Origin: Nocardioides sp. | Lineage (GTDB): Bacteria > Actinomycetota > Actinomycetes > Propionibacteriales > Nocardioidaceae | Length of the DNA: 33,904 nt | Reading direction: 5' to 3' | NCBI GenBank assembly: GCA_002729525.1 | Contig: PBYI01000022.1 | Span: 1 to 33,904 of the forward strand | In this document: in pieces, positions 27,703-30,607 of the stretch | Layout: every line of letters starts with the position of its first letter | Numbering within the stretch: the first letter of the stretch is position 1 | Made by a program: the position numbers and the translations under genes | Notes under the pieces: model-generated | Seen by the model: the letters and a program-made list of their open reading frames with translations, nothing else | Databases searched by the model: none | What the model was told of the DNA's origin: nothing

Positions 27703-27965
27703 ACCTCGCCTCCGCGCCCGTCATCGGGTCGGCCGCGGTGCTGACCTCGCCGGCGCTCTACGGCGCCTTCGTCACCGGCACCGTGCCGATCGACGTGGCG
27801 ATCACCCGCTGGCTGGTCGCCCTGCTGATCTGCTGGGTCGCGATCTCGGCCGTCGTGATGATGGTCGGCCCGCCGCCGGCGCCGAAGCAGACCGTCGAGG
27901 GCCCCGCCGGGTCGCCGCAGGGCACCGACGGTCAGTCCGCCGACGCCTCCAGCAGCGCGTTGTAG
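27699..27965 (+). CDS. Small membrane protein of unknown function, coupled to flhA
   Basis: An 88-residue protein whose ATG overlaps the flhA stop by 4 nt, suggesting translational coupling. One clear hydrophobic helix (about 37-57, RWLVALLICWVAISAVVMMV) follows a mildly hydrophobic Ala-rich N terminus; the C-terminal 30 residues are Pro/Gly/Ser-rich and probably cytoplasmic. I recognise no family. Its last 34 nt overlap the end of marR on the other strand. A role in export-gate or motor assembly is only a guess from position. Confidence 0.7.
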   Translation: MNLASAPVIGSAAVLTSPALYGAFVTGTVPIDVAITRWLVALLICWVAISAVVMMVGPPPAPKQTVEGPAGSPQGTDGQSADASSSAL

Positions 27966-28444
27966 CCGGCGAGGTCCCGCACGAAGCCCTCGAGCTTGTC
28001 GGTGTCCCAGCCGGCCAGCCGCTCCTGCACGTAGCGGCGGCGGTCGGCGCCGACCACCTCGATCCGGCGTCGGGCCTCGTCGGTGGCCGAGAGCACGATC
28101 GCACGACCGTCCTCGGGGTCCGGCTCGCCGGCGAGGAGGCCGAGCTCGACGAGGTGCTTCACCTGCCGGCTCACCGCGCCCTTGTCGACGTCCAGGCTCT
28201 CCACCAGGGTCGACGCGCGCAGCGTGCCCTCGCGCAGCACCGTGGTGAGGATGAGGTACGACGTGGGCTGGAGGTCGGGGTGCACCAGCCGCGCGCGGTC
28301 GGCGATCACGCGTCGTACCCGACGCATCAGGACGCCCACCTCGCTCTCGAGCGTGGTGATGGCGGCCTCCCGCAGGGCGAGGTCGTCGGTCACGACGGTG
28401 GTCTCCTGGGCTGTGTGGGGGTGGGGGACGGTGGCGGTGCTCAT
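27932..28444 (-). CDS. MarR family transcriptional regulator
   Basis: The 170-residue protein has a winged-helix DNA-binding domain. The recognition region is STLVESLDVDKGAVSRQVKH, followed by the wing with EPDPEDGRAIVLSATDEARR, both standard for MarR. Dimerising helices flank it. It is co-transcribed with the MFS exporter ahead of it (4-nt overlap ATGA), so it is likely a local repressor of that exporter, relieved by a ligand. Two 17-bp inverted repeats before the exporter are candidate binding sites. Its 3' end overlaps the convergent small membrane gene by 34 nt. Confidence 0.93.
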   Translation of the reverse strand: MSTATVPHPHTAQETTVVTDDLALREAAITTLESEVGVLMRRVRRVIADRARLVHPDLQPTSYLILTTVLREGTLRASTLVESLDVDKGAVSRQVKHLVELGLLAGEPDPEDGRAIVLSATDEARRRIEVVGADRRRYVQERLAGWDTDKLEGFVRDLAGYNALLEASAD

Positions 28445-30072
28445 GCCCGCTCGTCCGCCGGGACGGTCGCGACACCGGTGGCGGCCGTGGCGGTCTCGGC
28501 GTCACGGTCGATCGTGGTGCGCAGCGGGACCTCGCGGAGGAACAGCACGCAGACGAGGGCAAGGATGGCAAACGGCGCCGCGACCTGGAACACGTGCCCG
28601 ATCCCCGAGCCGAAGGCGTGCTCGTAGAGCGAGGCCCAGGCGTCCGGCAGGGACGACAGGTCGGGGATGCCGCCGGAGCCCGCGGCCGCCGCGTCCGGCA
28701 CCGTCTCTCCCTGGGCGACGAGCTCGGCCGCACCGTCCTTGACGCTCGCGGCGACCTGGTGGCTGAGCATCGCGCCGAGCACCGCGACACCCGCGGAGCC
28801 GCCGAGGGAGCGGAAGAAGGTCATCACCGAGGTGGCGGCGCCCATGTCGGAGAGCTGAACGCCGTTCTGCACTGCGAGCACGAGGTTCTGCATGGTCGCG
28901 CCGAGGCCGAGGCCGACGAGCGCCATGTAGGCGCCGACCCGCCACAGCGGGATGTCGGCGTCGACGGTGCCGAGGAGCAGGAAGCCGGCGACGACCAGCA
29001 CCATGCCGCCGACCAGCCAGCGCTTCCAGACACCGGTGCTGCTGATGATCCGACCGGTGGCGATGCTCGACACGAGCAGACCGCCGACCATGCAGATCGA
29101 CATCAGGCCGGCCTCGGTGGGCGACATGCCCCGGGCGAGCTGGAAGTACTGGCTGAGGTAGACGGTCGCACCGAACATCGCGACGCCGACGAGCACCGAG
29201 GCGAGAGTGCCGAGCACCATCGTGCGGTCGCGGAAGAGACGGAGCGGGATCACCGGGTCGGTGGCGACGCGGGCCTCGACCCAGATCGCGACCGCGACGA
29301 GCGCCAGACCGAGGGCGACGAGCAGGGCGGTGGTGGTGGAGGCCCAGTCGAAGGAGCTGCCGGCCAGCGACACCCAGACGAGCAGCACGGAGACGCCGGC
29401 GACGAGGGTGAGCGCACCGAGGTAGTCGATGTGCACCTCACGGCGTACGTCGGGCAGGTGCAGGGTGCGCTGGAGGACGACGAACGCGAGCGCCGCGAAG
29501 GGCAGGCCGACGAAGAAGCAGCCGCGCCAACCGAGCGCGGAGTCGACGATGAGGCCGCCGATCAGCGGGCCGCTCACGGTGGCGGTGGCGAAGACCGCGC
29601 CGATGTAGCCGGAGTACCGGCCGCGCTCGCGCGGGCTGACCATCGTGGCGATGACGACCATGACCAGCGCGGTCAGGCCGCCCACGCCGAGGCCCTGCAC
29701 GAACCGGGCGGCGATGAGGACGCCCATCGACGGGGCGAACGCCGCCACCAGCGACCCGATGCTGTAGATCACCAGCGCGGTCTGGACGAGCACCTTCTTG
29801 TCGAAGAGGTCGGCGAGCTTGCCCCAGATCGGGGTGGTCGCGGTCATCGCCAGGAGCGTCGAGACGACGACCCAGGTGTACTGCGACTGCGAGCCGCCGA
29901 GGTCGGCGACGATGCGCGGCAGCGCGTTGGTCACCACGGTGCTGGACAGCATCGCGACGAACATGGCGAGCAGCAGGCCGCTCATGGCCTCGAGCACCTC
30001 GCGGTGGCTCATCGCGCCGGCGGGGCGCTCGGTGGGGGTCGTCGGTGTCGACGTCACGGTCTCGTTCTCCAT
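28441..30072 (-). CDS. MFS drug exporter, DHA2 (14-helix) family
   Basis: A 543-residue membrane protein with about 14 hydrophobic helices. Motif A is visible as GKLADLFDKK between helices 2 and 3, motif C-like sequence around ATATVSGPLIGGLIVD, and AARFVQGLGVGGL earlier. Length and helix count fit the DHA2 drug:H+ antiporters (EmrB/QacA type). The substrate cannot be told. I chose ATG at 30070-30072, which gives MENETVTS and a short polar N terminus; longer in-frame translation up to 30354 runs through the regulatory leader. Downstream marR is in the same operon, and its leader holds an attenuator-like structure. Confidence 0.93.
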   Translation of the reverse strand: MENETVTSTPTTPTERPAGAMSHREVLEAMSGLLLAMFVAMLSSTVVTNALPRIVADLGGSQSQYTWVVVSTLLAMTATTPIWGKLADLFDKKVLVQTALVIYSIGSLVAAFAPSMGVLIAARFVQGLGVGGLTALVMVVIATMVSPRERGRYSGYIGAVFATATVSGPLIGGLIVDSALGWRGCFFVGLPFAALAFVVLQRTLHLPDVRREVHIDYLGALTLVAGVSVLLVWVSLAGSSFDWASTTTALLVALGLALVAVAIWVEARVATDPVIPLRLFRDRTMVLGTLASVLVGVAMFGATVYLSQYFQLARGMSPTEAGLMSICMVGGLLVSSIATGRIISSTGVWKRWLVGGMVLVVAGFLLLGTVDADIPLWRVGAYMALVGLGLGATMQNLVLAVQNGVQLSDMGAATSVMTFFRSLGGSAGVAVLGAMLSHQVAASVKDGAAELVAQGETVPDAAAAGSGGIPDLSSLPDAWASLYEHAFGSGIGHVFQVAAPFAILALVCVLFLREVPLRTTIDRDAETATAATGVATVPADERA

Positions 30073-30084
30073 GTCCGCTCTAAC

Positions 30085-30101
30085 GGTTGATAGAAGCAAC
30101 C
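30085..30101. promoter_or_regulatory. 17-bp inverted repeat, candidate MarR operator 1
   Basis: GGTTG-N7-CAACC, a perfect 5-bp palindrome with 7-bp centre, overlaps the -10 box and probable start point of the proximal exporter promoter. Operators of this form and size are usual for MarR proteins. Confidence 0.5.
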
Positions 30102-30128
30102 TTATTCCGGGTTGGTTGCCTCGGACAA
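30099..30128 (-). promoter_or_regulatory. Proximal promoter of the MFS-marR operon
   Basis: On the minus strand a -35-like TTGTCC (30123-30128) and a -10-like TAAGGT (30099-30104) are 18 bp apart. Both boxes overlap the two inverted repeats, consistent with repression by MarR. Confidence 0.4.
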
Positions 30129-30130
30129 CT
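30114..30130. promoter_or_regulatory. 17-bp inverted repeat, candidate MarR operator 2
   Basis: GGTTG-N7-CAACT has the same 5-7-5 spacing with one mismatch and lies over the -35 box. The centres of the two sites are 29 bp apart, a little under three helical turns, so two dimers could sit on the same DNA face. Confidence 0.45.
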
Positions 30131-30200
30131 TGTCGTGCGTCACGGGCCGCGCGGTCGGCATCGCTCGAGGACCGGGGACACGGGTCCGGGGAAAAGGAAC

Positions 30201-30272
30201 GACCCGCAGGCGGTGACGTCGGGCCGGTGGCCTCGACGCCGTCCGGGGGACGTCCCGGATCGCCTGCGGGTC
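30201..30272 (-). terminator. Large three-way hairpin, terminator-like, in the MFS leader
   Basis: Read on the minus strand, GACCCGCAGGCG (30261-30272) pairs perfectly with CGCCTGCGGGTC (30201-30212), 12 bp. Inside are two further hairpins: TCCGGG/CCCGGA, and an 11-bp one formed by GGCGTCG-a-GGCC and GGCC-CGACGTC. GTTCCTTTT follows directly, a short U-rich tail. It lies between the leader ORF and the exporter, where a premature terminator would act. Confidence 0.6.
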
Positions 30273-30293
30273 GGGTGACTGCGGTGGATTGCC

Positions 30294-30347
30294 AGCAGCC
30301 TCGAGGGTGGTTCCACCCCCGCACTACTGGGCTGCTAGCGAGCAGCC
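30294..30347 (-). promoter_or_regulatory. Mutually exclusive hairpins of a ribosome-sensing attenuator
   Basis: On the minus-strand RNA the segment AGCAGCC (30330-30336), which overlaps the leader ORF stop, can pair with GGCTGCT upstream in the ORF (30341-30347; 7 bp, CGCT loop) or with GGCTGCT downstream (30294-30300; 7 bp, enclosing a GGGTGG/CCACCC hairpin at 30305-30318). The two pairings exclude each other, the hallmark of attenuation. A ribosome stalled on codons 5-7 would cover the first arm. Confidence 0.6.
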
Positions 30348-30373
30348 ACCTCACGCGTCCTTGAAGAAATCAT
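30335..30373 (-). CDS. 12-codon leader peptide of the MFS operon
   Basis: ATG at 30371-30373 opens a 12-residue ORF reading MISSRTREVAAR, ended by TAG at 30335-30337. A perfect AAAGGAGG (30385-30392) lies 11 nt upstream, with GAGGA touching the ATG. The peptide is too short to be a product in itself; its end forms the 5' arm of an attenuator hairpin. Arg5-Thr6-Arg7 fits the +x+ pattern (basic, any, basic) known to stall ribosomes with bound macrolides, as in Erm leader peptides. There is no long-protein alternative with such good signals here. It is inferred to control the exporter downstream; translation and stalling are not shown. Confidence 0.65.
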   Translation of the reverse strand: MISSRTREVAAR

Positions 30374-30405
30374 TCCTCGGACCACCTCCTTTCCCGTGTA
30401 CGACG

Positions 30406-30442
30406 AGCGTAGGTCGCCGCTCAGCGGGCGACAACGGTTTTT
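30406..30442 (-). promoter_or_regulatory. Distal promoter of the MFS leader with WhiB7-like A-tract
   Basis: On the minus strand -35 TTGTCG (30429-30434) and -10 TACGCT (30406-30411) are 17 bp apart. AAAAA (30438-30442) sits exactly 3 bp upstream of the -35 box, the arrangement of WhiB7/WblC-activated promoters of antibiotic-resistance genes in actinobacteria. Transcription would start near 30399, a few bases before the leader Shine-Dalgarno. Confidence 0.5.
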
Positions 30443-30607
30443 CGCCTCGCGCGACCGGGCTGGTTGCGAACAGCGAATTTTGCGGTGACGGACTACTCAT
30501 GAGAAGAACACCTGCTCCAACAGTTGATCTGTCTGATTCCGCCCACCCGTGACACCACCGACCGCTACGTTCGGGCGCGGTTCGAGCGGAGCACACGGGG
30601 GATTCGC
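30443..30607. other. Intergenic stretch upstream of the large secreted protein
   Basis: No coding region can be supported here. It should hold the plus-strand promoter of the gene at 30608; TACGTT at 30566-30571 is a possible -10 box but no convincing -35 box lies at the right distance. It is visibly richer in A/T than the flagellar locus. A GGGGGA stretch just before the ATG may serve as the ribosome-binding site. Confidence 0.4.

Follow-up and report, generated by a model that had tools for sequence, protein, structure and literature searches.

The window analysed here is a stretch of 33,904 nucleotides from a Nocardioides genome (contig PBYI01000022.1). On its minus strand, a gene for a DHA2-type exporter is preceded by an intergenic region that the initial annotation had read as a candidate antibiotic-sensing attenuator, in which a ribosome stalled by a drug on a short ORF would switch a terminator. 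The genes and main features of this region are as follows.

30406..30443, minus strand: WhiB7/WblC-type promoter, predicted (GAAAAA box, 3 bp CCG, -35 box TTGTCG, 17 bp, -10 box TACGCT)
30194..30399, minus strand: Ms_IGR-5 small RNA (RF02471), from the predicted start at 30399 to the end of the Rfam match
30379..30392, minus strand: extended Shine-Dalgarno sequence AAAGGAGGTGGTCC, complementary over 14 nt, with one G-U pair, to the 16S 3' tail of the same genome
30335..30373, minus strand: 12-codon ORF MISSRTREVAAR, with ATG at 30373 and stop codon TAG at 30335
30085..30128, minus strand: TTGTCC and TAAGGT, 18 bp apart, read by eye as a promoter-like site of the exporter; the MarR-type palindrome GGTTG-N7-CAACC lies at 30101-30085
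28441..30072, minus strand: DHA2-type MFS exporter, likely start ATG at 30072, a neighbour outside the RNA
27932..28444, minus strand: MarR-family regulator gene, directly behind the exporter

The minus-strand segment 30399-30194 is a full-length match to the Rfam family RF02471, Ms_IGR-5 (model positions 1-184; 117.4 bits, E 4.3e-26), well above the gathering score of 45 bits of this covariance model, and a search of the whole genome gave this single match. Ms_IGR-5 is an actinobacterial small-RNA family that is already catalogued in Rfam, so the leader does belong to a described family, contrary to what had been supposed. All features pointed out in the initial annotation (promoter, Shine-Dalgarno sequence, 12-codon ORF, two 7-bp pairings sharing AGCAGCC, stem, inner hairpins and tail) are present in the sequence, and they lie far beyond chance because RF02471 matches from end to end.

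Matches to RF02471 were found in 97 of 120 genomes of the window's own family, one per genome except for G102 with two overlapping matches, and in 70 of 396 genomes of the phylum (35 above the cut-off). A pattern scan of named genomes gave at least 80 loci, with Acidimicrobiales, Solirubrobacterales, Thermoleophilaceae, Nitriliruptoraceae, Nonomuraea and Gordonia among the record titles. Among the matches listed, three loci with the RNA motif (L163, L191 and L197) come from metagenome-assembled genomes titled Acidobacteriota/Acidobacteria or Chlamydiae, and these labels likely reflect mislabelled bins or contamination. The count of exact pattern matches (88 of 396 genomes, and once for the reversed pattern) was discarded as a measure of prevalence, several matches looking unrelated by eye. 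For comparative analysis we used 119 distinct loci, 70 from the window's own family, 27 from the remaining families of its class and 22 from the rest of the phylum; the first two groups are called nearer loci (97) and the last distant loci (22).

In the published papers, as far as their accessible text goes, Ms_IGR-5 appears under the synonyms IGR-5 or ncMSMEG15794c in M. smegmatis and SLIV_16488 in S. lividans; it is named there as an sRNA, was mapped once more in M. smegmatis, and has been annotated or mapped as an sRNA in Streptomyces. The name scr4389, used in one paper, may or may not denote the S. coelicolor homologue. The open-access literature, with subscription papers and supplements outside its scope, only names or maps Ms_IGR-5 in the text available, and neither function, ORF, promoter class nor pseudoknot was found in it, nor did we find an open-access paper joining pseudoknot, WhiB7, sRNA and actinobacteria.

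In the promoter, the GAAAAA box lies at 30443-30438, the -35 box at 30434-30429 and the -10 box at 30411-30406 on the minus strand, and the predicted transcript start is near 30399. The WblC motif is given in print, in the portion available, as GAAAWY located 3 bp before the -35 box; the window promoter likewise has an A/T box 3 bp before its -35 box and a spacing within 16-19 bp. A -35/-10 pair with this spacing was found in 96 of the 97 nearer loci and in none of the 22 distant loci. Counted from the -35 box, the tetranucleotide at -8 to -5 contains at least three A/T in 92 of these 96 promoters, compared with 7/96, 1/96 and 3/96 at the control offsets of -12, -8 and +12; the control offset of +8, which coincides with the -35 box itself, gave 79/96. 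The proposed WhiB7-like character of the promoter is thereby borne out across relatives. The four weak boxes belong to L005 and to L091, L093 and L098, the latter three from genus g19 and without clear WhiB7. In these three g19 loci, which have a degenerate WhiB7 box, the RNA lies directly before argS, the called gene start following it at about 37 nt.

A WhiB7-like gene with GVWGGELF and an AT hook is present in the window's genome (G000:C45:95254-95604, minus strand). In this genome L143 carries both GVWGGELF and RGRPR, which are marks of WhiB7. Among the tested genomes that bear the RNA, WhiB7 was present in 9/9 of the own family outside g19 and in 23/23 of other families of the class; none of the six g19 genomes with the RNA has a clear WhiB7, one giving a faint match (7.5e-11). 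Among 20 tested of the 23 own-family genomes without an RNA match, 16 lack WhiB7 and 4 have it. This joint absence represents few independent events, because 14 of the 16 WhiB7-less genomes sit in g19 (14 tested g19 genomes with neither an RNA match nor a WhiB7 match). In the distant set, WhiB7 matched at E<=1e-10 in 9 of 22. On the promoter sequences, the Ms_IGR-5 RNA is likely switched on by WhiB7. Control by WhiB7 is nevertheless unlikely to be ancestral, since the RNA persists in six g19 genomes that lack a clear WhiB7, and a promoter of this kind is missing from all 22 distant loci. In S. coelicolor, according to the accessible part of the report, WblC directly controls four free-standing intergenic RNAs.

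The ORF follows an exceptional Shine-Dalgarno sequence. The 16S tail of the window's genome is GGATCACCTCCTTTCT, and the predicted duplex of -29.9 kcal/mol exceeds the best value of -20.0 among 532 called gene starts of the same loci, these starts being our own gene calls, of which some will be misplaced. An ATG, GTG or TTG lies in frame at the right distance in 97/97 nearer loci, against 3/97 and 2/97 in the other two frames, and the stop codon lies exactly five codons from an internal GAG-GTG in 117 of 119 loci while its identity switches (TAG 106, TGA 7, TAA 4). The same stop distance was found in 77/77 evaluable named loci among the matches listed (TAG 52, TGA 17, TAA 8). To judge from this conservation of frame and stop the 12-codon ORF is genuine, as had been proposed. 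In the 22 distant loci, an in-frame standard start was found in 11, with 1 and 0 in the other frames. Among 100 distant loci (L120-L139 and L151-L230, from the matches listed), ATG, GTG or TTG was in frame in 42 (other frames 23 and 0), and CTG, ATC, ATT or ATA in 53 (other frames 24 and 8). Translation in these distant lineages is uncertain because standard starts are few and CTG, ATC, ATT or ATA starts are many. The near-cognate in-frame starts of distant lineages often stand behind the same 16S-complementary Shine-Dalgarno sequence; they may be likened to the AUU start codon of infC, which is sensitive to IF3.

The internal GAGGTG (30352-30347, minus strand) is Shine-Dalgarno-like and overlaps the 5' strand of helix P1 described below. 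It is invariant in 119/119 loci, even in those (up to 20 sequences) where the P1 partner is lost. It is possible that this motif meets the 16S tail as the ribosome nears the stop codon. We do not claim it as a pause site, since its predicted 16S duplex is equalled by 6.5% of in-gene windows and since relatives were both found and anchored with similar letters.

The predicted fold of the RNA comprises the following elements.

30395..30398, minus strand: 5' strand of helix P0, CACG, RNA nt 2-5
30356..30360, minus strand: pseudoknot strand a, GGACG, codons 5-6
30352..30355, minus strand: 3' strand of P0, CGTG, codon 7 and the first base of codon 8
30342..30350, minus strand: 5' strand of helix P1, GGTGGCTGC, end of codon 8 to codon 11
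30291..30339, minus strand: stem-loop P2 (30339-30330 with 30300-30291), weakly conserved, holding the stop codon
30274..30282, minus strand: 3' strand of P1, GCAGTCACC, immediately before the terminator
30200..30273, minus strand: terminator stem P3, 30273-30261 pairing with 30212-30200, which encloses inner hairpin P4, 30259-30254 pairing with 30247-30242
30248..30252, minus strand: pseudoknot strand b, CGTCC, in the loop of P4
30188..30199, minus strand: T-rich tail TTCCTTTTCC, following P3

Pairing was counted on a structure-blind MAFFT alignment of all 119 loci, and both the counts and the shuffles ignore descent. For the whole structure 88.1% of cells were paired compared with 77.0% after shuffling, a value reached in 0 of 500 shuffles. 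Sliding the partners by 1-3 columns reduced it from 88.1% to 32-45%, a control that is biased toward any structure read off the same sequences. Helix P1 (GGUGRCUGC with GCAGYCACC) was paired in 93.9% of cells, with 42 two-sided changes against 5.5 in shuffles, and its number of pairs with two-sided change was equalled in 1/500 shuffles. A search for P1 partners in single sequences was untelling (9/9 pairs in 263 of 1940 shuffled trials); the case for P1 lies in its fixed place and its covariation. Helix P0 was paired in 98.4% of cells against 84.8% in shuffles, with 46 two-sided changes against 6.1, and its variants include CACG/CGUG, CCAG/CUGG, CUUC/GAAG, CGUA/UACG and CAGG/CCUG; its number of pairs with two-sided change is 3 compared with 2.5 in shuffles, and 280/500 shuffles were as high. 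In 77 named loci among the matches listed, 4-5 of 5 P0 pairs formed in 76 when the most favourable of 15 offsets was taken; in 70 this offset fell in the expected range of 8-10.

The pseudoknot, PK, joins GGAC(N) in codons 5-6 to (N)GUCC in the loop of P4. It was paired in 92.5% of cells, with 52 two-sided changes against 18.1 in shuffles, and 17/500 shuffles had as many pairs with two-sided change. Its pair 52-214 is C-G in 104 loci, U-A in 12, U-G in 1 and broken in none (n=117). On the best tree, built without the tested columns, this swap between C-G and U-A requires at least 6 joint changes, but the well-supported branches carry only 1 independent pair. Among the matches listed, GGUCC occurs 60-170 nt downstream in 67 of 77 named loci, a count with no position check or control behind it. 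The named loci are a partly independent check, and the search pattern itself prescribed their PK 5' strand and GAGGTG. Instead of forming PK, codons 5-6 could pair with GGUCC of the Shine-Dalgarno sequence; 96.8% of cells pair in this way, with little covariation, and 50/500 shuffles were as high.

Terminator stem P3 is as in the Rfam model and has two-sided changes at 13/13 pairs; the terminator-like stem noted earlier thus exists, with a length of 13 bp instead of 12. Inner hairpin P4 is kept in 58-74% of cells and P2 is paired in 65.6%. The tail is moderately T-rich, the mean number of T in 12 being 4.3 in the own family, 4.0 in the other nearer loci and 2.9 in the distant loci. The Rfam model is without P0, PK and P1, and its first helix was dropped here, having no two-sided change in 708 cells. 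Compared with that model, the two covarying helices P0 and P1 and the loop-loop pseudoknot, with strands lying in codons of the ORF, are new predictions. The two AGCAGCC pairings, which had been proposed as a mutually exclusive switch, can be drawn in the window, but their base pairs are kept in only 27-94 of 119 loci for the first and 41-93 of 114-119 loci for the second. We rejected them as a conserved switch; neither is kept in full, and for the second there is weak support within the longer stem P2.

The Arg-Thr-Arg of codons 5-7 had been taken for a stalling motif of the +x+ type. It occurs in 49/119 loci, and any +x+ in 56/119. PK accounts for the GG at the end of codon 5 and for the AC at the beginning of codon 6. 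This AC is replaced by AU in 12 nearer loci, converting Thr to Met or Ile, and there the partner loop has changed from GUCC to AUCC; the distant locus L059 also has T at that position of codon 6, paired with G. Since these 12 loci carry the matched change of the loop, we infer that RNA pairing, rather than a stalling role of the peptide, preserves 'Arg-Thr'.

The effect of ribosome position was modelled with a pseudoknot-free partition function. In the window RNA the probability of P3 was 0.99 whether the RNA was free or a ribosome stood at the start codon, codon 5, codon 7 or the stop codon, and over 97 loci its median was 0.97 in each of three states (free, codon 7 and stop), falling below 0.5 in 1/97. 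No alternative pairing that excludes the terminator appeared in this model, in five full-length states of the window RNA or in three states of the 97 loci. Because the terminator stem forms equally wherever the ribosome stands, the model contains no antiterminator. P1 was open in the model with the ribosome at codon 5, codon 7 or stop. P0 had a probability of 0.0 in the free window RNA under this pseudoknot-free model, and reached 0.96 only with nt 5-43 held open; the simple fold model thus speaks against P0, whereas the comparative evidence speaks for it.

The relation of the RNA to the exporter is variable. The exporter scores 204.8 bits against the DHA2 model TIGR00711, below its cut-off of 230.2. 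By our own gene calls, a DHA2 exporter is the next gene at 21 of the 119 loci, namely 21/70 in the own family, 0/27 in other families of the class and 0/22 in the rest of the phylum, and the first called downstream gene lies on the opposite strand in 22/70, 16/27 and 16/22, respectively. With exporter types assigned from protein clusters, one representative of each being compared with Pfam, 49 of the 70 own-family loci adjoin some exporter-type gene (DHA2, MFS_3 or ABC). GTTG-N7-CAAC is present in the spacer between RNA and exporter at 21/21 DHA2 loci, in comparison with 1/49 of the other own-family spacers, and in the window this palindrome overlies, by eye, the -10-like box of the promoter-like site of the exporter. 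The exporter likely has its own MarR-type control, and the gene right behind it may encode the repressor.

Comparison of the sequences establishes the promoter box, the ORF, the 14-nt 16S complement and the covariation of the predicted P0, PK and P1. The competition proposed earlier, between RNA structure and a ribosome on the ORF, is supported in this form, with predicted strands of PK, P0 and P1 lying in the codons of the ORF. As these elements use codons 5-11, translation and folding should exclude each other. The reading that we prefer, which is quite possible while short of an even chance, is that Ms_IGR-5 is a self-terminated, WhiB7-controlled and ribosome-operated switch, in which a translating ribosome opens the fold and a blocked or initiating ribosome is held. 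PK occupies nt +14 to +18 of the ORF and, by covariation, is a pseudoknot at the initiation region. Judged from the ribosome footprint, mRNA enters the initiating ribosome at about the place where PK begins. A 30S subunit would bind the very strong Shine-Dalgarno sequence, and since PK begins at +14, near the mRNA entry, it would be held between duplex and PK, much like the ribosome entrapped on E. coli rpsO, the hyper-pairing behind and the pseudoknot ahead retaining it until the pseudoknot melts. Elongation would then strip PK, P0 and P1 in order, and the fold would re-form after the ribosome has left. In this way, RNA copies transcribed when drug stress induces WhiB7 would sequester or tune 30S subunits that are initiating. 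On the geometry alone, such holding of 30S subunits is the likely output of the switch. A wider version, which we regard as doubtful, is that of an ancestral actinobacterial RNA machine, in which the pseudoknot clamps the start-codon loop of the micro-ORF to the terminator hairpin, the 16S tail docks on its near-complete complement, initiating 30S subunits are metered, and WhiB7 would have recruited the RNA later into the response to translation-blocking drugs.

The main rival keeps the same fold and switch and places the output in trans, the freed 3' strand of P1 (GCAGYCACC) binding G-rich ribosome-binding sites elsewhere. This strand is C-rich and conserved, and P1 is predicted to be open in each of the ribosome-bound states at codon 5, codon 7 or stop; the authors of the S. 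coelicolor study, in the text available, also propose a trans role for the four free-standing WblC-controlled RNAs. But the pairing within P1 already explains the conservation of the strand, and we consider a trans output somewhat unlikely.

Alternatively, what matters might be the peptide: a micropeptide synthesised during drug stress could, for instance, rid the translating ribosome of drugs. The ORF conserved in frame and the Shine-Dalgarno duplex predicted to be stronger than at 532 called gene starts would suit this explanation, as would the ribosome footprints reported, in the accessible part of one paper, on the M. abscessus and M. smegmatis homologues. It is made improbable by the finding that codons 5-11 track RNA pairing, as the replacement of Thr by Met or Ile is compensated in 12 loci and changes in codons 10-11 accompany those of the P1 partners; in addition, codons 2-4 and the last residue vary, and distant lineages have many near-cognate starts. 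Slightly less probable again is that the RNA is simply noncoding and functions through its fold alone, the ORF being incidental. For this explanation speak the strongest constraint, which is on pairing, the few standard starts in distant lineages, and the observation of the same footprint paper, as far as its text is available, that footprints are also seen on most of the characterised ncRNAs of E. coli; against it stand the in-frame start in 97/97 nearer loci, a stop codon that switches among TAG, TGA and TAA at one place in 117/119 loci (and in 77/77 among the matches listed), and the 14-nt Shine-Dalgarno sequence. The attenuator of the initial annotation, in which a drug-stalled ribosome at Arg-Thr-Arg switches the terminator and lets transcription enter the DHA2 exporter, has in its favour that the exporter is next on the same strand here and at 20 other own-family loci, some read-through into it being possible, yet it is highly improbable given an exporter linkage confined to 21/119 loci, none outside the own family, a MarR-type palindrome in 21/21 of those spacers, a terminator stem indifferent to ribosome position in the fold model, and +x+ in only 56/119.

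Comparison with known systems helps to place the switch that we prefer. Leader peptides of Erm and ABC-F genes have a short ORF, a stalling motif and linkage to a resistance gene. Ms_IGR-5 shares with them a short ORF before a drug-resistance-type gene, but lacks a conserved stalling motif and conserved linkage. SgrS and RNAIII are dual-function sRNAs with a short ORF, in which coding and pairing regions are largely separate; a short ORF in a regulatory RNA is common to them and Ms_IGR-5, whereas coding and pairing coincide only in the latter. According to the accessible parts of published accounts, the uORF of the whiB7/wblC leader resembles Ms_IGR-5 in its short ORF behind a consensus Shine-Dalgarno sequence, its terminator-like stem and its link to translation stress; it differs as the leader of whiB7 itself, thought to act by attenuation, while Ms_IGR-5 has neither a conserved downstream gene nor a modelled antiterminator. 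The rpsO pseudoknot of E. coli and mycobacteria (S15 control), as described in the passages available, likewise lies at the initiation region, and the E. coli version takes in the beginning of the coding region and entraps the ribosome, but it belongs to the leader of a ribosomal-protein gene with a protein repressor, whereas Ms_IGR-5 is a small separate RNA. The 5' region of tisB mRNA also has a pseudoknot, which the available text describes as needed for 30S binding, although it serves a standby site far upstream of the toxin gene and is not made of codons. Ms_IGR-5 appears to be an independent RNA with a conserved ORF, its independence being indicated by the varied context of the loci and by Streptomyces transcript maps, to the extent that these are accessible.

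Set beside the literature available to us, where the family name and map were known before, the A/T box, the ORF judged genuine, the exceptional predicted Shine-Dalgarno duplex and the predicted P0, P1 and pseudoknot are new here. A catalogued RNA family now has a testable anatomy of promoter class, ORF, strong predicted Shine-Dalgarno duplex and pseudoknot. Moreover, a short ORF reading 'Arg-Thr-Arg' can be held by pairing and mimic a drug-stalling leader peptide. If ribosomes are indeed held in this way, an RNA acting on initiation itself would form part of the programme by which actinobacteria intrinsically resist drugs, and this RNA would be older than the programme.
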